Of a stretch of 64,000 nt of DNA, positions 44,287 to 57,082 are shown in pieces (the stretch's first letter is position 1; each line of letters begins with the position of its first letter). This stretch comes from Aquabacter cavernae. GTDB lineage: Bacteria > Pseudomonadota > Alphaproteobacteria > Rhizobiales > Xanthobacteraceae. A program made the translations under genes and the position numbers. The notes under the pieces were generated by a model. It did no database searches, was not told the DNA's origin, and saw nothing but the letters and a program-made list of their open reading frames with translations. Location: assembly GCF_003993795.1 (NCBI RefSeq), contig NZ_RWKV01000015.1, positions 124,001 through 188,000 of the forward strand, read 5' to 3'.

Positions 44287-45762
44287 TCACAGAAAATCCG
44301 GACCGTGGACGCCCTGCCAGCCCGCGCCGTGGCCCATGCCCAGCAGCGTGGAGCGCTGCATCACCGTCGCGGGGGACGCCGTGCGCTCCGGCGGCACCAG
44401 GGCCTCCAGGAAGGTCTCGGCCCACTGGTCGATATCGTTGCGGCGGAGCACCGCCATCATGCGCTCATGGCGCTCGCGCCGCTCGTCCAGCGGCATGTCC
44501 AGGGCGCGCTTGAGCGCCGCCGCCATGCCCTCGGTCTCATGGGGATTGACCATGAGCGCCCCGCCCGACAATTCCGCCGCCGCCCCCGCGAATTGCGAGA
44601 GGAGCAACACGCCGGGATCGGCCGGATCCTGGGCCGCGACGAATTCCTTGGCCACGAGATTCATCCCGTCCCGCAGCGGCGTGACCATGGCCACATTCGC
44701 CGCGCGATAGAAGCCGCCCAGCGCCGAGCGCGAATAGGTGCGGTTCACATAGCGCAGCGGCGTCCAGGCCACGTCCCCGAAGGCGCCATTGATCTGCCCG
44801 GCCTTGTGGGAGAGGAACCGGTCCATCTCGATATATTCAGGCACCTCGGTGCGGCTCTTGGGGGTGATCTGGGCGAAGGTCACCTTGTCATGCCATTCGG
44901 GCGAGGTCCGCAGCAGCGTCTCATACGCCTCCAGCCTGTGGGGAATGCCCTTGGAATAGTCCAGCCGGTCCACGCCGATGATGAGCTTGCGCCCGCCCAG
45001 GCTGTTGCGGAAGCTCTTCACATAATCGGTGCGCCCGGCATGGCGGGCGCGGCGGGCGAAGGCCTCGGTCTCGATGCCCACGGGGAAGACCGCGATCCTC
45101 ACGCGGCGCCCGGCAATCTCATAGACCGACGGATCGGACGTCACCTGTCCGCCCCGGGTGATGAGATAGCGGCCGAAATTGTCCCGGTCATTCTCGGTCT
45201 GGAAGCCCACCAGATCGAAATGGGCGAGCGAGCCCAGGATCTCCCCGTGGCGCGGCAGGGTCTGGATCAGCTCCGGCGGCGGCATGGGAATGTGCAGGAA
45301 GAAGCCGATGCGGTTGGCATGGCCGCGCTCGCGCAGATATTTGGCGAGCGGCATCATGTGATAGTCGTGCACCCAGATCACGTCGTCCGGCTGGATGAAG
45401 CGCGAGGCATGGTCCGCGAACAGCCGGTTGACCCGGATATAGCCGGAGAGGTCGGCCCGCTGGAACTCGGCGAGGTCCACGCGGTAATGCAGGATCGGCC
45501 AGAGCACGCGATTGGCGAAGCCGTTGTAATATTCCTGGTAGTCGCTGTCCTTCAGGTCGATGACCGCATATTTGATGCGGTTGCGCGTGGTCACGGCCGG
45601 ACGGTCGGACGGCACGTCGGTGATGCGCCCGCTCCAGCCGAACCAGACGCCGGAGCGCTCCTTCAGCGCCGCATTGACCGCGACGGCCAAGCCCCCGGCG
45701 GTCACCTTGCCATTGGCCTCGGGAACGGCGACCCGGTTCGACACGACGATAAGGCGCGACAT
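44287..45762 (-). CDS. otsA: Alpha,alpha-trehalose-phosphate synthase
   Basis: OtsA joins UDP-glucose and glucose-6-phosphate to trehalose-6-phosphate. The 491-residue GT20 protein has the N-terminal TAGGLAVAVNAAL loop, WVHDYHMMPLAKYLRE, FFLHIPMPPPELI, VDRLDYSKGIPHRLEA and DGMNLVAKEFVAAQ. ATG 45762 has GGGAGG upstream and begins one base after the otsB stop. Both genes lie behind the EcfG-type promoter at 46636-46661. Confidence 0.96.
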   Translation of the reverse strand: MSRLIVVSNRVAVPEANGKVTAGGLAVAVNAALKERSGVWFGWSGRITDVPSDRPAVTTRNRIKYAVIDLKDSDYQEYYNGFANRVLWPILHYRVDLAEFQRADLSGYIRVNRLFADHASRFIQPDDVIWVHDYHMMPLAKYLRERGHANRIGFFLHIPMPPPELIQTLPRHGEILGSLAHFDLVGFQTENDRDNFGRYLITRGGQVTSDPSVYEIAGRRVRIAVFPVGIETEAFARRARHAGRTDYVKSFRNSLGGRKLIIGVDRLDYSKGIPHRLEAYETLLRTSPEWHDKVTFAQITPKSRTEVPEYIEMDRFLSHKAGQINGAFGDVAWTPLRYVNRTYSRSALGGFYRAANVAMVTPLRDGMNLVAKEFVAAQDPADPGVLLLSQFAGAAAELSGGALMVNPHETEGMAAALKRALDMPLDERRERHERMMAVLRRNDIDQWAETFLEALVPPERTASPATVMQRSTLLGMGHGAGWQGVHGPDFL

Positions 45763-45763
45763 G

Positions 45764-46582
45764 TCAGGACCTCCCTTCGGCAGCGGCGGCGAGGCGCCGG
45801 ATGAGCATGCGCACGGCCTGCGCCGTCTCGATGGTAAGGTCCGCTCCGGCAAGGCGCCGCCCGACGCTCACCGCGAGGCCGCCATGCTCGCGCACGGCCG
45901 CAAAGCCGGCCTCGTCGGTGACGTCGTCGCCGAAGAAGACCGGCACGCGACCGGCGAACGGCGGCTCGGCCAGGAAGGCGCGGACCGCCGCGCCCTTGTC
46001 CTGGCCGCGCGTCTTCACTTCAAACACCATGCGCCCGGGCAGCACTGCGAGGGTGCGCGCACGGGGCGCCACGATGCGCGCCACGGCCTCTTCCAACTCG
46101 GGCGCCACGGCGGGGGCCGCGCGATAATGCAGCGCCACGCTGGCGCCCTTGTCCTCCACGAGCACACCCTCGAACCGCACGGAGAGATCACGCAGCGCGG
46201 TGCGCACGTCATCCGGCAGGAGGGCGGCCACGAGGCGCGACTCGCCCTCGCCGGTGGGCCGGAACTGCGCGCCATGGATGCCGGACAGCGGGAGCTTCAG
46301 GGGCGCGAACAGGCGGTCCAGCACCGAGGCCTCGCGTCCGCTCACCAAGGCGAGGGCGCCGCCGGTGGCCTGCATCAGGACGGACAGGTGATCGATAAGG
46401 GTGGGGGGCACTTCGACCGCGTCGGGATGAGGCGCGATGTCGATGAGGGTGCCGTCCACGTCGAAGAAGAATGCATTCTGATCGACCGAAAGAAGGTCCC
46501 GCAGATCCACACTCCGCACCTCCGCTCCGATGGGGGGCGCCGGATCGCGCCGCGGGGAAATGGGCTGTGCCGAAGGGACCAT
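45764..46582 (-). CDS. otsB: Trehalose-6-phosphate phosphatase
   Basis: OtsB removes the phosphate from trehalose-6-phosphate. The 272-residue HAD-family protein has FFFDVDGTLIDIAPHP (Asp41 nucleophile, Asp43 acid), ALVSGREASVLD, and VFFGDDVTDEAGFAAV. ATG 46582 is preferred; upstream in-frame codons would place the start at or before the promoter. otsB comes first and otsA second, with one base between them. Confidence 0.94.
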   Translation of the reverse strand: MVPSAQPISPRRDPAPPIGAEVRSVDLRDLLSVDQNAFFFDVDGTLIDIAPHPDAVEVPPTLIDHLSVLMQATGGALALVSGREASVLDRLFAPLKLPLSGIHGAQFRPTGEGESRLVAALLPDDVRTALRDLSVRFEGVLVEDKGASVALHYRAAPAVAPELEEAVARIVAPRARTLAVLPGRMVFEVKTRGQDKGAAVRAFLAEPPFAGRVPVFFGDDVTDEAGFAAVREHGGLAVSVGRRLAGADLTIETAQAVRMLIRRLAAAAEGRS

Positions 46583-46635
46583 GCCGATTCGTTCTCCACT
46601 AAAAAATGCGAAAATATGGAATGACTTGCCATTGA

Positions 46636-46661
46636 AACGCCGCGAGTGGGGCAAGGGTTCC
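46636..46661 (-). promoter_or_regulatory. EcfG-type promoter of otsBA
   Basis: On the minus strand GGAAC (46661-46657), 17 bases, CGTT (46639-46636) match the general stress response consensus exactly. The predicted start site is about 45-50 bases upstream of otsB. Confidence 0.85.
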
Positions 46662-46744: not shown

Positions 46745-46769
46745 GGAACCGGCATGGCCCCCATGCGTT
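46745..46769 (+). promoter_or_regulatory. EcfG-type promoter of the 46798 gene
   Basis: GGAAC (46745-46749), 16 bases, CGTT (46766-46769) is an exact consensus match. It lies 28 bases before the ATG and is divergent from the otsBA promoter 84 bases away. Confidence 0.83.
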
Positions 46770-46797: not shown

Positions 46798-47280
46798 ATG
46801 AACTGGGTTCCCTGGCAACCGCCCGCCTCCCCGCTCGAGCAGAGACTGGATTCGCTCCGCAACGAGATGGTGCGCCTCGCGCGGGCCGTGGGAGAGCTTC
46901 CTTCCGGCCGCGCGCAGGCCTCCGCCGTGGCGGCGCGGCGTTTTGCCCATGACGTGTCGCACAAGGTGTCCGATGGTGGCCGCGCGGCCGGCACGGCCCT
47001 GACGGACGGCGCCGCGGCAGCCTGGAGCGGCGGGCGCACGGCCGCCGGCCGGCTTGACGCCGCCGCGCGCCACACACAGGAACAGATCGCACGCTACCCT
47101 GCCGCCACGGCAATCGCCGTGGTGGGGGTAGGCTTGACCCTGGCTTTTGTGCTTAGCTTGGCGGTGCGAAAACCCCGCCAGCGAACGTTTGCTTCGCCTG
47201 GTGGAAATGTCCGCCGACCGCCGGCGAAAGCGTCACGCGCGTTCGGACGGACGGCCCGGCCTAGCCGGCAAGATGTATGA
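46798..47280 (+). CDS. Tail-anchored small membrane protein, stress-promoter controlled
   Basis: The 160-residue product has an amphipathic Ala/Arg-rich N-terminal part (LEQRLDSLRNEMVRLARAVG). One membrane helix follows (YPAATAIAVVGVGLTLAFVL, about residues 100-120), then a basic tail. The layout recalls DUF883/ElaB-type proteins but I do not recognise a named family. GGAG lies ten bases before the ATG. It ends 11 bases before the lipoprotein gene, so the two probably form an operon. Confidence 0.72.
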   Translation: MNWVPWQPPASPLEQRLDSLRNEMVRLARAVGELPSGRAQASAVAARRFAHDVSHKVSDGGRAAGTALTDGAAAAWSGGRTAAGRLDAAARHTQEQIARYPAATAIAVVGVGLTLAFVLSLAVRKPRQRTFASPGGNVRRPPAKASRAFGRTARPSRQDV

Positions 47281-47291
47281 TGGAGAGCAAA

Positions 47292-47561
47292 ATGAGGGCG
47301 GCAATCATCGTTGTGGCAGCGGCGCTGGCTCTGGGCGGGTGCAGCCAGTATTCCGAATCTGACCGTGCGGTCGGCGGCGGCCTGATGGGTGCCGGTGCCG
47401 GCGCCCTGGTCGGCGGCCTGGCCACCGGCACGGCGGGCGGCGCCGTGGTTGGCGGCGTGCTCGGCGGCGCCACCGGCGCCATCGTCGGCGCGGCCACCAC
47501 CCCGAAGAATTGCTGGGCGCGCGACGCCTACGGCAATTCCTTCCGCGTGGCCTGTCCCTGA
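47292..47561 (+). CDS. Glycine-zipper lipoprotein
   Basis: The 89-residue product has a lipoprotein signal with lipobox ALGGC. A glycine-rich zipper segment follows (GGGLMGAGAGALVGGLATGT and GGVLGGATGAIVGAA), and then a short tail with CWARDAYGNSFRVAC. Such proteins sit in the outer membrane or periplasm and are often stress-induced. ATG 47292 has GGAG seven bases upstream. A strong terminator follows at 47587. Confidence 0.8.
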   Translation: MRAAIIVVAAALALGGCSQYSESDRAVGGGLMGAGAGALVGGLATGTAGGAVVGGVLGGATGAIVGAATTPKNCWARDAYGNSFRVACP

Positions 47562-47586
47562 GCAGTTACCCCGACCGGATCGATCG

Positions 47587-47617
47587 CGGGGCGCCTTCGG
47601 GCGCCCCGTTTTCGTTT
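47587..47617 (+). terminator. Intrinsic terminator after the lipoprotein gene
   Basis: CGGGGCGCC-TTCG-GGCGCCCCG (47587-47608) is a perfect 9-bp stem if the outer C-G pair is counted, with a TTCG tetraloop, followed by TTTTCGTTT. Confidence 0.85.
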
Positions 47618-47629
47618 CGGGCGCCGCAC

Positions 47630-47654
47630 GGAACCAGTGCTGTCCTGGGGCGTT
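47630..47654 (+). promoter_or_regulatory. EcfG-type promoter with no protein gene behind it
   Basis: GGAAC (47630-47634), 16 bases, CGTT (47651-47654) is an exact consensus match. It lies between two intrinsic terminators and points rightward into a region with no plus-strand gene. Confidence 0.8.
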
Positions 47655-47659
47655 GATAC

Positions 47660-47729
47660 GGCGTCGCTTATCATCGACACCTCCAAAACTGAAACGGGCG
47701 GGCGCCTCTCGGCAGCCCGCCCAATTTTT
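47660..47729 (+). ncRNA. Candidate general-stress small RNA, about 70 nt
   Basis: The segment begins just after an exact EcfG promoter and ends in the terminator at 47696-47729. The upstream terminator at 47587 isolates it from the lipoprotein operon. A weak 5-prime hairpin can form between GGCGTCG (47670-47676) and CGACACC. It is followed by an unpaired ACACCTCCAAAAC stretch whose CCTCC could pair with ribosome-binding sites. I find no open reading frame with a ribosome site. GsrN of Caulobacter, a sigma-T-dependent small RNA, is a precedent, but homology is not shown. Confidence 0.6.
47696..47729 (+). terminator. Intrinsic terminator of the candidate small RNA
   Basis: GGGCGGGC (47696-47703) pairs with GCCCGCCC (47715-47722) around an 11-base loop, followed by AATTTTT. 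The opposite strand also has a T-rich flank, so it may stop the convergent transglutaminase transcript too. Confidence 0.85.
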
Positions 47730-47749
47730 ATGGCGCCGTCCGCCACCCC

Positions 47750-48829
47750 TCAGGCGCTGAGCGCGGCCTGCTGCTGGACCTGCTCGGATTCGATCCGCAC
47801 GGCTTCGAGCTGACCGGATTCGACCTCAGCCGCCGGAGCCTCCTCGAAGGACAAGATGTCGGCGGGGGTGCAATCGGCGAACGAGCCGCGCAGGCTGGAT
47901 ACCACGGCCGGGGATAGCTGGACCGCCTCTCCCTCCACGCCGGAGAGCCGGGTGGAGACGAACACTTCCACATCCATCCCCAGGAACGCCTGCGGCGTGT
48001 CGGAGATGAAGCTGCCGACGATGGGGGATGCCTGGCGCGGATCACGCACCACCGCCACCCGCACCAGATGGTCCGTGCCGATGAGCGCGTTGGTGGGATC
48101 GAAATCCACCCAGCCCGCGCCCGGCAGATAGACTTCCGCCCAGGCATGGGTGGCGCCGGCGCCCCGGATCTCTTCCGAATGGTCGATATTGAGATCGAGA
48201 TGGGGGGTGTAGAGATAGCCCGTCACGAAGCGCGCGGCGAAGCCCAGCTCGCGCACGGTCTCGATGAACAGGAGCGCGAAGTCGCGGCAGGTGCCGGAGC
48301 GATGCGCCAGCGTCTGCGCGGGGGTCTGGGTGCCCTCCTCGATGCGCGCCTGATAGACGAAGTCGGATTTGACGGCGGCATTGATGGCGTGGAGCAGGTC
48401 CAGCGTGCCGATGGTCTCGCCGGGCTTCACGAAGGTGGCAAGCCACTCCTTCACCTCGCCCGAATCCTCGTACTGCGTGGTCAGCATCTGCGAGGCGTCG
48501 AACCGGTCGTCGCTGGAATAGACGAAGGGATAATTGGAGGCGACGGGATCGAGCAGGCCCTGGAGATCGGGCGTGGCATAGCTGTCCAATTCCAGCACGC
48601 TCTCGATCACCAATTCGCTCGCCGGGCCGTGGAAATCCACCAGCGCGATGGAATTGCCGAACACGTCGTAGATATATTTCACATCCCCGGTGGGCGAGAG
48701 CGTGAGGCGCGCCTCATGCAGCCGCAGGCCGTGGCTGTCCCGCGGGCGGAGCATCAGGCGATGCTGGCCGAACTGGACCGGCTCGGAATAGCGGTAGCGC
48801 GTCTTATGCTCGACGATAAGCCGGCGCAT
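47750..48829 (-). CDS. Transglutaminase-like family protein
   Basis: The 359-residue protein has an N-terminal beta-rich domain (HKTRYRYSEPVQFGQHRLML). The transglutaminase-like domain has Cys181 in HRSGTCRDFALLF, His228 in ATHAWAEVYLPG and Asp244 in VDFDPTN, a complete triad. Such proteins are probably cysteine proteases or peptide-modifying enzymes of unknown substrate. There is no signal peptide. ATG 48829 has GGAGG upstream; the in-frame extension to 48901 lacks one. Confidence 0.9.
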   Translation of the reverse strand: MRRLIVEHKTRYRYSEPVQFGQHRLMLRPRDSHGLRLHEARLTLSPTGDVKYIYDVFGNSIALVDFHGPASELVIESVLELDSYATPDLQGLLDPVASNYPFVYSSDDRFDASQMLTTQYEDSGEVKEWLATFVKPGETIGTLDLLHAINAAVKSDFVYQARIEEGTQTPAQTLAHRSGTCRDFALLFIETVRELGFAARFVTGYLYTPHLDLNIDHSEEIRGAGATHAWAEVYLPGAGWVDFDPTNALIGTDHLVRVAVVRDPRQASPIVGSFISDTPQAFLGMDVEVFVSTRLSGVEGEAVQLSPAVVSSLRGSFADCTPADILSFEEAPAAEVESGQLEAVRIESEQVQQQAALSA

Positions 48830-48989
48830 GGCGACCCTCCTGAGGGAAATGGCGTTCACGCAGGGGCGCGAGCGGAAGGTCCACATTAGCATGCGGCGCA
48901 CGCCCCCGGTGAAGGCATGCGCCGCGAAAGTCCTTTTCCTGTGGGCGGACCTCGCGGCCCGCCCGAAACCTGCGTGCGAACCGCAGGCC

Positions 48990-49860: not shown

Positions 49861-50079
49861 ATGCGGGCCCCTCATCGGCGCGATATTTCGGCGCGCCAGG
49901 ATCTCCTCGGCAAGGAACTCCGCCAACTCTTCGATGGCTATACCAGCGAAGAGATGCCGGACGAATTGCTGAAGCTCGCCGAACAGCTGCAAGGGGCGTT
50001 CGAAAGCGGGAAGATCGCGAAGCCCGCCGCCGCCACGTCGGAGGATCCACCTCCGGCAGCGCCCCTGGATTCCAAATAG
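49861..50079 (+). CDS. nepR: NepR-like anti-sigma factor
   Basis: The 72-residue product contains RQDLLGKELRQLFDGY and EMPDELLKLAEQLQGAFE. This resembles NepR proteins, which have a LG..L+..(Y/F)D helix, a (V/M)PD and a second LL..L helix. NepR holds EcfG inactive until phosphorylated PhyR binds it. ATG 49861 has GAGAGG five bases upstream; ATG 49804 is the alternative (91 residues). It is not next to ecfG, which is unusual, but it has its own EcfG promoter. The family call is by eye and needs a profile search. Confidence 0.6.
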   Translation: MRAPHRRDISARQDLLGKELRQLFDGYTSEEMPDELLKLAEQLQGAFESGKIAKPAAATSEDPPPAAPLDSK

Positions 50080-50280
50080 AAGCTGCGCCATCCGCGCAGC
50101 CCTGCATGCCCGTTCGGGCTCGTCTCTGTGGAGGCGGGCCCGAACGGCGTTTGGGCGGAAGACCGAGCGGGTCTCCTGAGAAGAAGCTCTCGCGGATGAG
50201 GCGCAGGCGCCGAACACCGGCCTCAAAGGCCCGTGGATCCATGCGATAGGGAGGCGACCTTGCAAGGCGCCTCCTGCTAT

Positions 50281-50500
50281 GGCAGGTTGCCCCTAGGACA
50301 TTCAACTTACGTGAAAGCTAAAGCGCCCTAATGCCGGACGAAGGCGACAGTACAGGCGATAGTCGACACCGAATGAGGCTGATCTCCCGAAGTGGATGTC
50401 AGCCTCACATGTCCGAATTATCACATATGACGAACGACCGCCTCGGATGTTTCATCCGGGGCTTTTTGCGTTCGCACCACACCGCTCATAAGGTCTAGTC
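50281..50500 (+). promoter_or_regulatory. Structured leader before terC-type gene, possible attenuator
   Basis: The 421-base gap after the NepR-like gene ends in an intrinsic terminator (50440-50467) placed 33 bases before the next ATG. Upstream are two pairings: GAGGCTGA (50376-50383) with TCAGCCTC (50399-50406), and GGACAT (50297-50302) with ATGTCC (50408-50413), which would enclose it. This is the layout of a riboswitch or attenuator. TerC-family genes are often under the yybP-ykoY manganese riboswitch, but I do not see that consensus here. Confidence 0.5.
50440..50467 (+). terminator. Intrinsic terminator upstream of terC-type gene
   Basis: GCCTCGGATG-TTT-CATCCGGGGC forms a 10-bp stem with one T-G pair, followed by TTTTT. 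It could end the NepR-like transcript, a short RNA, or act as an attenuator for the gene starting at 50501. Confidence 0.85.
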
Positions 50501-52163: not shown

Positions 52164-52772
52164 CTAGCTGCGGGCGGCCGAAAGGGCGACGGAATCGCCC
52201 TCCACCACATCGGCGGTGTCTTCCGCGCCCATGAGCGTCAACAGCTTGGCGCGGGCGCGGTTTACGCGGCTCTTGATGGTGCCCAGCGCACAGCCGCACA
52301 CATCCGCCGCCTCCTCATAGGAGAGGCCGGCCGCGCCCACCAGAACCAGCGCCTCGCGCTGGTCGGAGGGAAGCAATTCCAGCGCCTCCTTCAGGGAGCG
52401 CAACGTCATGGACCATTCCTGGCCGGGTCCCATATTGGAATCCTGCTGGGCCAGCGTGGCCATGCCGTCATTCTCGCGGCGGCGCTTGCGGATCTCGGTG
52501 TAGTAGGTATTGCGCAGGATGGTGAACATCCAGGCCCGCAGATTGGTGCCCGGATCGAACTTATCGATGTTCGACAGCGCCTTGAGCAAGGTCTCCTGCA
52601 CCAGGTCGTCCGCCTGGGTGCGGTTGCGCGTCAGCGAGCGCGCAAAGGCGCGCAACGCCGGAAGCAATTCGAGCACCTGGTCGCGCAGCGCTTTCATCTC
52701 AGAGGAGGCCGCAGCCGCAGAGGTCACCGCCGTCGAGGTCTCGGCCGTCGAGGTCTTGTTGGCAACTTCCAT
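52164..52772 (-). CDS. ecfG: General stress sigma factor EcfG
   Basis: The 202-residue ECF sigma factor has region 2 (ALRAFARSLTRNRTQADDLV, DKFDPGTNLRAWMFTILRNT) and region 4 (LELLPSDQREALVLVGAAGL and SYEEAADVCGCALGTIKSRV), the EcfG subgroup pattern. It directs RNA polymerase to GGAAC-N16/17-CGTT promoters. ATG 52772 begins MEVANK. The promoter at 52914-52938 has its own consensus, so the gene is autoregulated. Unlike most such loci there is no nepR directly upstream. Confidence 0.93.
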   Translation of the reverse strand: MEVANKTSTAETSTAVTSAAAASSEMKALRDQVLELLPALRAFARSLTRNRTQADDLVQETLLKALSNIDKFDPGTNLRAWMFTILRNTYYTEIRKRRRENDGMATLAQQDSNMGPGQEWSMTLRSLKEALELLPSDQREALVLVGAAGLSYEEAADVCGCALGTIKSRVNRARAKLLTLMGAEDTADVVEGDSVALSAARS

Positions 52773-52913
52773 AGGACGTCTGCTATCCGTTTCGTGAGAT
52801 TGAAACACGCCAGCCACCCCTCACAAAATCTCCTGCCGCGTGCGTTCCGGCCCCTCTCTGGGCTGCTGCGACGGCGTAGGCCGCACGGGACGCACCGGCT
52901 GTGTTACGGAAGA

Positions 52914-52938
52914 AACGTAGGGCCGGACCACAGGTTCC
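52914..52938 (-). promoter_or_regulatory. EcfG-type promoter of ecfG
   Basis: On the minus strand GGAAC (52938-52934), 16 bases, CGTT (52917-52914) is an exact match. It lies about 140 bases upstream of the ecfG start, inside the gap to the KGG gene. Confidence 0.85.
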
Positions 52939-53372: not shown

Positions 53373-55100
53373 TCAGCGGGTCTTGAAGCGGGGGGAGAAG
53401 CGCACCTGCGCGCGGCAGCCGGTGCCGGCGGGGACGACCTCAAGGGAACCGCCGATCTGGCGGGTGAAGCCGTAGGCGAGCGGGATCTTGGCCTCACTGA
53501 GACTGTCCCGCAGATCCTCGGAGGCGATCAGGCTGAGGACCACGAGCCCGCCCTCCTCCACGCCCTTGAGCGCCAGCCGCAAGGGCGGGCGGGCGCTGGC
53601 CCGGCCCATGGCCATGATGATCTCGGTGAGCAGCAAGGCGAGCGGGCCCGCAAGGTCGGTGGGCAGCACCACCTCGTCCGCCTCCACGGTGACCAGCACC
53701 GTGCGGTCGAGGGAGGCTTCCAGCAGGGCGCTCAATTCGCGCAGCAGTTCCAAAATCTGCACCTGCGACCCCTCGCTCGCCTCGAAAAGAATGCGATGGA
53801 CCACGGCGAGGGTATTGATGCGGATGCGCAACTGGTCGAACCGGGAGCGGTCCGCCTCGTCGCGCACGCCGGAGCCGTAGAGGCTGAGCAGGCTCACCAC
53901 CACCTGGAGGCTGTTCTTCACCCGGTGGTGGATCTCGCGCACCAGCGCGGTCTTCTCCGCCAGCCCCTCGCGCAGCTTCGCGTCCCGCTCGCGGATCGCC
54001 AGCGCCATGTCCTCGATGGCATGGCCGAGCACGCGGAACTCGCTCGGCGCCTGGTCCATGCGCGACGGGCGGAAGCCGTAATGGCCCTGCCCGTAGACCG
54101 CCGTCACGCGCCGCAGATAGAGCAGCCATTGCAGGACCATGCGGTCCGTGGCGAGCCAGATGGCGACGATGGTGAAGATCACCATGAAGATGGGCAGGAT
54201 GAAGCTGACCGCCACATGAAAGGTGGTCCACTGGAACAGTTCGTCGGAGGGCTGGGCGTAGGCGAGCAGCAGGTTGTGCCGCTCCAGCGTGGCCACCGCG
54301 AAGCTCCAGGAGCGACCGGAAATGTCCCGCGTCTCGCCCAGCTTGCCCACATAATCCGACAGGTCCTTGCCGTCGAACAGGCGGCGGCTGATGGCCGGCG
54401 CGTTGGAGACCAGTTGCTGCCCCTCGGCGTCGAACAAGGCCGCGACCCCCTCGCTGGACGGGGTCTCGCGCTTCAGCAGATTGTCCAGCCAGCCCGCATC
54501 GATGGCCACGGAGAGTGCACCGACGAAGTCCGACTGGGCATTATAGAGCGGCAGCGTGCCGATCATGATTTCCGAGCGCGTGACCGGGCTGATCTGGCGC
54601 TCGCCCAGGGTGAAGGCCTTGGACGCCTTCGCCCTCTGCCACCAGCCGCGCTGCGACATGTCGGTGCCGGCCTGGGTGAGGGCGGAACAGGTCACACGCC
54701 CCTCCGCATCGATGAAGGCGATGTTGGAGGCGAATGGCAGGCTGAGGGTGGCGCCATAGAGTGTCGCCGCGCAATCCTGGCCGTCGCTGTGCACGCCCGG
54801 CACGTTCTTCAGCGCCTGGAGCACGTTTTCGGCGGAGGCGAAGACGTTCTGCTGGCTGCCGGCGCCGGTGATGGCGCCCTGGAGCAGGCGATGCTGGGCC
54901 TCTTCGGTGGCGCGCCGCAATTGCAGCACGCCCTGCACCATGCTGGCAGAGGCAATGGGGGTGATGGCGATGAGGATCACCAGGATCAGACCCCGGCGGA
55001 CACTGTCCAGCAGATGGCGCGGATGGCCGGCGGCCGAGGCGAAGATCGCAGCCCGTTCACGATCGCGAAGACGGGTCGCCGCGCCTTTCACCCACCGCAT
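53373..55100 (-). CDS. HisKA_2 sensor protein (PhyK or PhyP type) with degenerate ATPase domain
   Basis: The 575-residue protein has membrane helices near residues 37-56 and 295-317 with a Cache-like periplasmic domain between (about 57-290). A HAMP-like linker follows, then a HisKA_2 dimerisation helix with the phospho-acceptor His in LVREIHHRVKNSLQVVVSLL (about 391). In the ATPase part, the expected TELxTNALKH is TEIIMAMGRA, so the N-box Asn is missing, and no DNGxG motif is seen. It may act as a PhyR phosphatase (PhyP) or need a partner. ATG 55100 has AGGTGG upstream. It is divergent from phyR. Confidence 0.85.
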   Translation of the reverse strand: MRWVKGAATRLRDRERAAIFASAAGHPRHLLDSVRRGLILVILIAITPIASASMVQGVLQLRRATEEAQHRLLQGAITGAGSQQNVFASAENVLQALKNVPGVHSDGQDCAATLYGATLSLPFASNIAFIDAEGRVTCSALTQAGTDMSQRGWWQRAKASKAFTLGERQISPVTRSEIMIGTLPLYNAQSDFVGALSVAIDAGWLDNLLKRETPSSEGVAALFDAEGQQLVSNAPAISRRLFDGKDLSDYVGKLGETRDISGRSWSFAVATLERHNLLLAYAQPSDELFQWTTFHVAVSFILPIFMVIFTIVAIWLATDRMVLQWLLYLRRVTAVYGQGHYGFRPSRMDQAPSEFRVLGHAIEDMALAIRERDAKLREGLAEKTALVREIHHRVKNSLQVVVSLLSLYGSGVRDEADRSRFDQLRIRINTLAVVHRILFEASEGSQVQILELLRELSALLEASLDRTVLVTVEADEVVLPTDLAGPLALLLTEIIMAMGRASARPPLRLALKGVEEGGLVVLSLIASEDLRDSLSEAKIPLAYGFTRQIGGSLEVVPAGTGCRAQVRFSPRFKTR

Positions 55101-55316
55101 GAAAAAATCCACCTGTCCACGCGCACGCCCCTCACAGGTGTCCGAAAGCCCGGCAACCGGAAGCGTGACCGCTTCCCTCCATTAGATCCCCATTCCAGAA
55201 CAGGCGATAAGGAAATCCTGAATGTCCGCACACGCAGCCGGGTTTCTCGCACCCGGCCTGCAATCCCCGGCATGCGAGGCTATAATGCGAAATTCGCGCT
55301 CGGGTTCCTGCCACAG

Positions 55317-55371: not shown

Positions 55372-56163
55372 ATGCCACACCAACAGCTCATCAAGCAGCT
55401 TCCCCTTTTGCGGCGCTTCGCGCGCGCCCTGCTCGGCAGCCAAAAGGCCGGTGATGGGCTGGTCCAGGACACGCTGAAGGCCATCCTGGACGGAACCGCC
55501 GCGATTCGCCCGGAGCTGTCGCCGCGCGTCGCGCTCTACCGGGCCTTCTACGAGGTCTGGTCCCGCAGGCCCGCATCCGCCGGGGGCGCGGCGATCCGCG
55601 CCGACCTGCGCCTCCAGCAGCTCGGCTCCACCTCCCGCGTGGCCCTCCTGCTCACCGCCATGGAAGGCTTCTCCTTCGCGGAGGCCGCCTCCATCCTCTC
55701 CACCACCCTCGACCAGGTGGAGGCCATGGTGGTGGCCGCCCAGGCGGAGATCGATGCGCAGCTCGCCACCCGCGTCCTCATCATCGAGGATGAATGGGTG
55801 ATCGCACTCGACCTGAAGACCCTGGTGACCGAGCTGGGGCACGAGGTGGTGGGCGTCGCCCCCACCCATACAGCCGCGCTGGAGCTGGCCAGGAGCGGCG
55901 ATTTCGGGCTGGTGCTGGCGGACATCCAGCTGGCGGACGGCTCCTCTGGAATCGATGCGGTGAGCGACATCCTGGAGAGCTTCAACGTGCCGGTGATCTT
56001 CATCACCGCCTTCCCGGATCGCCTGCTGACCGGCGAGCGGCCGGAGCCGACCTATCTCATCACCAAGCCGTTCCTCAGCGAAAACGTAAAGGCCACCATC
56101 GCCCAGGCGCTGTTCTTCCACGAGGCCCGCACGGGCGCCGAGCCCACCGCCCGCATCGCCTGA
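55372..56163 (+). CDS. phyR: General stress response regulator PhyR
   Basis: The 263-residue protein joins an EcfG-like sigma decoy domain (about 1-130: QQLIKQLPLLRRFARALLGS, AFYEVWSRRP, AMEGFSFAEAASILSTTLDQ) to a receiver domain. The receiver has acidic pocket Glu139-Asp140, phospho-acceptor Asp184 (LVLADIQLADG), Thr212 (FITAFPD) and Lys232 (YLITKPF). When phosphorylated, the decoy domain binds NepR and frees EcfG. GAGAGG precedes ATG 55372. It is divergent from the HisKA_2 sensor gene, the usual arrangement. Confidence 0.95.
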   Translation: MPHQQLIKQLPLLRRFARALLGSQKAGDGLVQDTLKAILDGTAAIRPELSPRVALYRAFYEVWSRRPASAGGAAIRADLRLQQLGSTSRVALLLTAMEGFSFAEAASILSTTLDQVEAMVVAAQAEIDAQLATRVLIIEDEWVIALDLKTLVTELGHEVVGVAPTHTAALELARSGDFGLVLADIQLADGSSGIDAVSDILESFNVPVIFITAFPDRLLTGERPEPTYLITKPFLSENVKATIAQALFFHEARTGAEPTARIA

Positions 56164-56929: not shown

Positions 56930-56954
56930 GGAACTGCGCCTCGGGGAAGGCGTT
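56930..56954 (+). promoter_or_regulatory. Orphan EcfG-type promoter
   Basis: GGAAC (56930-56934), 16 bases, CGTT (56951-56954) is an exact match. It points toward the 3-prime end of the minus-strand receiver gene; no plus-strand gene or clear terminator follows. A transcript from it would be antisense to that gene. Confidence 0.65.
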
Positions 56955-57082
56955 TCATCAGGGAGCGGCGGGCGCGGCGGGAGTGCCCACCCCCCTTCCC
57001 CCTCCCCGGCTTTCGACGCGACCGCCGCTCACATCTCCCAAACGGTCACTTTTCCGGACGCGCACGCGCACCGCGTGGCATC

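Follow-up and report, generated by a model that had tools for sequence, protein, structure and literature searches.

General Stress Locus and EcfG Promoter

The locus examined here raises the question of what a promoter for the general stress sigma factor would transcribe where no protein gene follows it. The DNA analyzed (the window, 64,000 nucleotides) belongs to a 4.5 Mb Aquabacter genome (G000), and its initial annotation had reported an exact EcfG promoter at 47630-47654 without a protein gene behind it. The match is exact, with the form GGAAC-N16-CGTT on the plus strand, and is also recognized in a comparison of nine homologs; the window copy of the predicted small RNA (sRNA) contains no open reading frame of its own on the plus strand. 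Tien et al. applied the same strict boxes, GGAAC and CGTT, to SigT (PMC5869019).

The general stress locus spans 44.3-56.2 kb of the window, and its core stress genes lie within 9 kb of the sRNA, with the ecfG-nepR-phyR set represented by a nepR-like gene at 2.1 kb, an ECF sigma factor gene at 4.4 kb, and phyR at 7.6 kb. On the upstream side are otsA and otsB for trehalose synthesis (44287-46654, minus strand; PF00982, PF02358), an EcfG promoter (46745-46769, plus strand; pattern match and locus inspection) before the upstream gene pair (46798-47561), and an OsmB-like glycine-zipper lipoprotein gene (47277-47561, plus strand; PF13488 and NF007830, both below cut-off). In all eight loci inspected, from three genera (G102 left out), this lipoprotein gene is the one immediately preceding the sRNA. 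On the other side, a transglutaminase-like gene (47750-48901, minus strand; PF08379, PF01841) is convergent with the sRNA. The convergent gene is a transglutaminase gene in the five genomes of genus g1 and in G021 (genus g18), and appears DUF1328-like, by eye, in G005 (genus g2).

Farther downstream, a nepR-like anti-sigma factor gene (49861-50079, plus strand; PF18557 and NF051865, both below cut-off) encodes a very short protein (72 aa) that matches NepR models weakly and was found in five of the 87 genera sampled (E <= 1e-5). Between this gene and a TerC-family gene, approximately 420 bases (50080-50500) contain no evident gene by eye, and the sigma gene is not adjacent to nepR, being located farther on and on the opposite strand. 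This ECF sigma factor gene (52164-52817, minus strand), probably ecfG as judged from context only, has an EcfG promoter ahead of it (52914-52938), and is followed by a PhyK-like HWE sensor kinase gene (53373-55112, minus strand; NF051872 below cut-off) and phyR (55372-56163, plus strand; PF22029 and PF22233, with NF006623 above cut-off).

Ten GGAAC-N15-18-CGTT sites occur in the window against 1.18 expected, a number that none of 100 shuffles reached. In the whole genome, GGAAC-N16-17-CGTT occurs 70 times, close to the 64 sites of the reversed control, so that a lone GGAAC/CGTT site carries little meaning; nine of these 70 strict sites fall inside one 11.8 kb stretch around the sRNA promoter, and the promoter cluster at this locus is real. 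A terminator-like stem with a T-run within 160 nt after the promoter was detected at three of the 68 distinct strict sites examined (70 in the genome), and at one of the three the stem overlaps the promoter.

Among the nine sRNA homologs, GGAAC and GTT are kept in every case, in the form GGAAC-N17/18-GTT throughout, and the position preceding GTT holds C in four of them, A in three, and T in two. The strict CGTT -10 box is therefore present in just four of the nine, with AGTT or TGTT in the other five, which counts against the reading as an EcfG-dependent sRNA. The spacer shows 33% identity (28 equal-length sequence pairs), with one length in eight of nine homologs. The stretch between the -10 box and the RNA hairpin (47655-47660, plus strand) shows 28% identity (36 pairs), yet it measures 6 nt in all nine, although the script allowed 5-7. 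A drifted spacer together with a fixed 6-nt length is what would be expected of a promoter with its start fixed at the hairpin. The near-consensus sigma-EcfG promoter typical of GsrN-like RNAs is present, as are the general attributes of a sigma-EcfG-dependent sRNA, namely a promoter, no ORF, a terminator, and a conserved RNA.

Anatomy and Fold of the Predicted sRNA

The predicted sRNA comprises about 69 nt (47661-47729, plus strand; putative 5' end), as outlined by three models (R1-R3) and by folding, which agree with an earlier proposal of an RNA of approximately 70 nt with a weak 5' hairpin. From 5' to 3' it would consist of a hairpin, ACCUCCA, a 9-nt linker, the terminator stem, and a T-run. 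The fold of 47660-47730 has a minimum free energy (MFE) of -31.9 kcal/mol and a z-score of -5.3, and z-scores over the nine sRNA sequences, including that of the window, range from -3.1 to -5.5.

The 5' hairpin (47660-47681, plus strand), with a GUCG...CGAC core and an 8-nt loop, is present in the MFE structure of eight of the nine sequences and shows 86% identity (8 equal-length pairs). It is weak in the window (GG-C-GUCG) and stronger in relatives, with up to eight pairs; in G002, with one core pair disrupted, it does not form in the MFE structure, and in G051 the pairing, by eye, is like that of G005. The loop is CUUAUCAU, and the C-containing motif lies outside it. This motif, the invariant and anti-Shine-Dalgarno-like RCCUCCA (47679-47685, plus strand), is kept in all nine homologs, with 92% identity (36 pairs), and extends from the foot of the 5' hairpin into the linker that follows. 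In the fold of the window RNA, the GG of the hairpin pairs with the CC of ACC, so that the start of RCCUCCA is held in weak outer pairs and the remainder is free. An unpaired ACACCTCCAAAAC, as initially described, is thus only partly borne out, since UCCAAAACUGAAAC alone is free in the MFE structure, while the weak stem takes up the C that precedes the motif and both Cs of ACC. The invariance of RCCUCCA is consistent with the suggestion, also made initially, that the motif could pair with Shine-Dalgarno sequences.

The intrinsic terminator previously placed behind the promoter (47696-47729, plus strand) was confirmed by sequence, fold, stem scan, and covariation; its stem (47696-47722) is followed by AATTTTT, which sets the predicted RNA end at about 47729, and plus-strand T-runs follow the stem in all nine homologs. 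It is absent from the output of the terminator-tool scan, probably because the stem is bulged. The same scan did list, at 47586-47609, the terminator after the upstream lipoprotein gene (about 47586-47619, plus strand), which agrees with the earlier view that a terminator precedes the sRNA gene.

Covariation was evaluated in two alignments. MAFFT left the 5' arms of the nine RNAs unaligned; several subsets were tried, and one well-aligned subset of five sequences was used to build model R2, with which the nine were aligned (A8). The covariation score of A8 exceeded 500 of 500 shuffles, and five pairs changed on both sides, a number reached by 2 of 500 shuffles, results that lean toward structure because A8 was fitted to structure. 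Four of these five pairs belong to the terminator stem (four of its seven helix pairs) and one to the 5' hairpin. The unfitted alignment A7, with five sequences, showed no significant covariation. The terminator has good support, whereas the case for the 5' hairpin depends less on covariation than on the retention of its pairs.

Conservation and Distribution among Relatives

The initial annotation had made its proposal depend on conservation in relatives, and the unit of promoter, hairpin with RCCUCCA, and terminator is present in nine genomes, which belong to Aquabacter and two closely related genera. Copies in G003 and G002 were detected by a DNA search of 101 relatives, and those in G004 and G001 were found by place, not by model; the sRNA is present in all five genomes of the genus examined. 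Model R1, built from the five RNAs of the genus without the promoter, gave matches at E <= 0.01 in 19 of 391 family genomes, comprising the five of the genus, two each of g2 and g18, and ten others. The four new copies in the sister genera each carry GGAAC-N17-GTT at the same distance upstream, and none of the 13 other matches outside the genus is preceded by the promoter. By score alone, the copy in G051 (R1, E 7e-4) does no better than the promoterless matches, a point against the sRNA reading.

Model R3, built from all nine copies, separated nine of the 391 family genomes at E <= 1.4e-8 from the next match at 1.8e-3, these nine being the same that built the model. In 397 genomes of the order it matched strongly in its own genome only, the next match being at 8.9e-5, and no promoter stood upstream of any of the 47 weak R3 matches from the family and order searches. 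Rare or distant members may have been missed because of stricter filters and the sampling of larger groups.

The sRNA was not found in any other genus sampled. Among these is g13, where the lipoprotein shows 77-79% identity but the two genomes inspected have no promoter-RNA unit after its gene. A scan of the stress loci of G059, G016, and G044 likewise found no unit; because only A, C, or G was accepted ahead of GTT, it missed even the TGTT copy of G005, and its failure to find a unit in g13 and g41 carries less weight. A pattern scan of genome contigs yielded 65 stretches, seven of which have the hairpin-terminator form and all come from the three genera, whereas the remaining 58 (five with a T-run only, 53 with neither) are attributed to chance. 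No open frame is shared across the homologs on either strand. Genus g52 (L272, L295) presents two weak matches with CGCCUCCAAAGCGA before a terminator but without an EcfG promoter, which may represent 3' ends or an unrelated sRNA. The Aquabacter sRNA is of a known kind and constitutes a new family of narrow range.

Comparison with Known sRNAs

The likeness to GsrN of Caulobacter drawn at the outset remains conceptually valid with regard to the EcfG promoter, the stress locus, and the C-rich pairing element, but is not supported as membership, given that the motif is located at the hairpin foot and linker and not in a loop of tandem Cs. Both RNAs have a strict EcfG/SigT promoter, a 5'-proximal C-containing element, and an intrinsic terminator, and predicted GsrN homologs are mostly located near ecfG-nepR-phyR, as is the Aquabacter sRNA (PMC5869019). 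However, GsrN is described as an RNA of approximately 100 nt with six tandem Cs in its 5' loop that is cut to 51-54 nt, compared with about 69 nt for the Aquabacter sRNA, and it pairs through those tandem Cs and activates katG (PMC5869019); the 5' hairpin loop of the Aquabacter sRNA exposes no such tandem cytosines. According to the same source, GsrN homologs identified by BLASTn are limited to Caulobacteraceae, and those beyond this family were selected not from their sequence but from transcription data, position, and promoter (PMC5869019).

No match above the gathering score of Rfam 15 was obtained in the 64 kb window, and the Rfam comparison initially recommended places the sRNA in no family, with 14-16 bits for ncS025 and ar14. 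The alpha-r14/NfeR1 family (RF02344) shares the anti-Shine-Dalgarno CCUCC (PMC10746234, PMC3927594), but the sRNA reaches 14.0 bits against a gathering score of 58.8, and alpha-r14/NfeR1 is described with three hairpins, each with CCUCCUCCC unpaired, where the Aquabacter sRNA has one motif. Regulation of alpha-r14/NfeR1 by LsrB and NtrC has been reported (PMC10746234, PMC3927594), as has repression through CCUCCUCCC motifs of NfeR1 at the ntrB translation start (PMC10746234). The alignment to ncS025 of Burkholderia (RF02869) is weak, with 15.8 bits against the 46 needed and an E-value of 1.2, and covers a similar hairpin, a CUCCAAA stretch, and a terminator. The RFM SmelC671 of Rhizobiales has the motif CUCCCUGU instead of RCCUCCA, and the passage on SmelC671 mentions no EcfG promoter (PMC3927594). 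Among the open-licence papers listed for Aquabacter small RNAs and for Xanthobacter and EcfG sRNAs, none was evidently concerned with such an RNA.

Target Search

Candidate targets were sought with the pattern TGGAGGYGT-N1-7-ATG, a Shine-Dalgarno sequence plus start codon complementary to the motif. It occurs 18 times in G000, one site being the minus strand of the sRNA itself, and by eye about five of the other 17 resemble real starts, in genes which we take to encode a MipA/OmpV-like protein, a TRAP permease, a membrane protein, a proline-rich protein, and a NUDIX protein. The NUDIX gene, present in nine of ten other genomes searched (missing from G002), was rejected as a conserved target; the site in G003 has one change, and none is seen in the other eight genomes over the 60 bases preceding the aligned start, although some of these starts are uncertain. 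A wider pattern, GGAGGYGTCGATG with one mismatch, was also discarded, and its 121 matches in G000, versus six for the reversed control, are attributed to common codons.

For the leaders of nepR, predicted duplexes lay below the shuffles by more than 1 SD in five of 11 genomes (G003, G059, G044, G005, and G051), the largest difference being 1.9 SD. No sRNA was found in G059 or G044, which, together with G016, where none was found either, were paired with the RNA of the window, and in G002 and G021 the stretch tested is not at a clear start codon. Neither the NUDIX gene nor the nepR leaders thus yielded a target. A CCUCC 7-mer could pair with very many mRNAs and is partly paired in the predicted fold, both of which count against specific pairing.

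Proposed Mechanism and Alternative Explanations

The PhyR/NepR/EcfG cascade is established as the stress cascade of alphaproteobacteria. As judged from its sequence, the locus probably encodes a sigma-EcfG-dependent, trans-acting sRNA of about 69 nt that would repress mRNAs at their Shine-Dalgarno regions. Under stress, PhyR would remove NepR from the sigma factor, and the freed EcfG would transcribe the sRNA from about 47660. The 5' hairpin, starting within 1-2 bases of the 5' end, probably shields that end, and RCCUCCA would pair with GGAGG-type Shine-Dalgarno regions of a set of mRNAs, whose translation would fall while the stress regulon is active; NfeR1, with its motifs acting at the ntrB translation start, offers a precedent for pairing of this sort (PMC10746234). 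The terminator stem and U-tail would terminate the sRNA and may bind Hfq.

The same EcfG-dependent sRNA could instead act mainly by activating leaders, in the manner of GsrN on katG, or by soaking up RNAs, a reading that we consider unlikely but of some weight. The pairing of the C-rich loop of GsrN with the G-rich katG leader provides a precedent for activation (PMC5869019), and the failure to find a repressed target agrees with either variant. However, the complementarity of RCCUCCA to the Shine-Dalgarno core favors occlusion of initiation, and an anti-Shine-Dalgarno-like 10-mer is reportedly the means by which SisA of C. crescentus represses many targets (PMC12559287).

Repression in trans is also to be weighed against explanations in which the stretch serves another purpose or none. 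It is improbable that the transcript acts in cis, mainly as a terminator or antisense for the opposite-strand gene. The sRNA does run toward the transglutaminase gene, which ends with its stop codon at 47750, but G005 keeps the RNA despite its different convergent neighbor, the T-runs lie on the plus strand in all nine homologs, and the best-kept elements, the hairpin and RCCUCCA, are outside the terminator. A small protein gene reading out of the sRNA stretch on the minus strand seems very improbable; GGAGG, five bases, and ATG are found there in seven of nine homologs, yet G005 and G051 have no ATG, and beyond the first residues the frames have different lengths and sequences. That a promoter-like site stands by chance ahead of an unrelated terminator is scarcely credible, since conservation in nine genomes already contradicts it and the clustering of strict sites around the locus argues against it, despite the lack of genome-wide enrichment of the pattern.

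Other C-Rich Elements with EcfG Promoters

A second conserved noncoding element (56930-57036, plus strand), past phyR and two small genes, begins with an EcfG promoter (56930-56954), after which 19-21 pairs form a hairpin (56963-57030) whose C-rich loop (GCCCACCCCCCUUCCCCCUCCCCG) has 24 unpaired nt. It is kept in G001 and G004, and in G003 it is cut by the contig end. The z-score of the fold is ordinary in the window (-0.9) and lower in G001 (-2.7) and G004 (-2.6); no terminator is evident within the element, which resembles the GsrN predictions near the stress locus. Away from this locus, an element at G000:C1:1116551 (L346:52-160, plus strand) has an EcfG promoter, a hairpin whose loop, CUUCCCCCCC, contains seven tandem Cs, and a strong terminator (z -7.0). 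Its syntenic copy in G003 (L386, minus strand), the one genome compared, keeps the boxes with a changed spacer and has six Cs. This element is a better GsrN candidate than the CCUCC sRNA of the same genome.

We tentatively suggest that the general stress response of Aquabacter may command at least three sRNAs with different C-rich modules (the CCUCC sRNA, 56930-57036, and C1:1116551), although we would not yet call this probable. If true, the three would form a post-transcriptional arm re-ranking the translation of G-rich leaders under stress. The CCUCC sRNA represents a family that is defined by sequence, located in a stress locus of Rhizobiales, and recognizable by its clear promoter signature and its short, invariant pairing motif, and an effect of EcfG on translation in other alphaproteobacteria thereby becomes directly testable.
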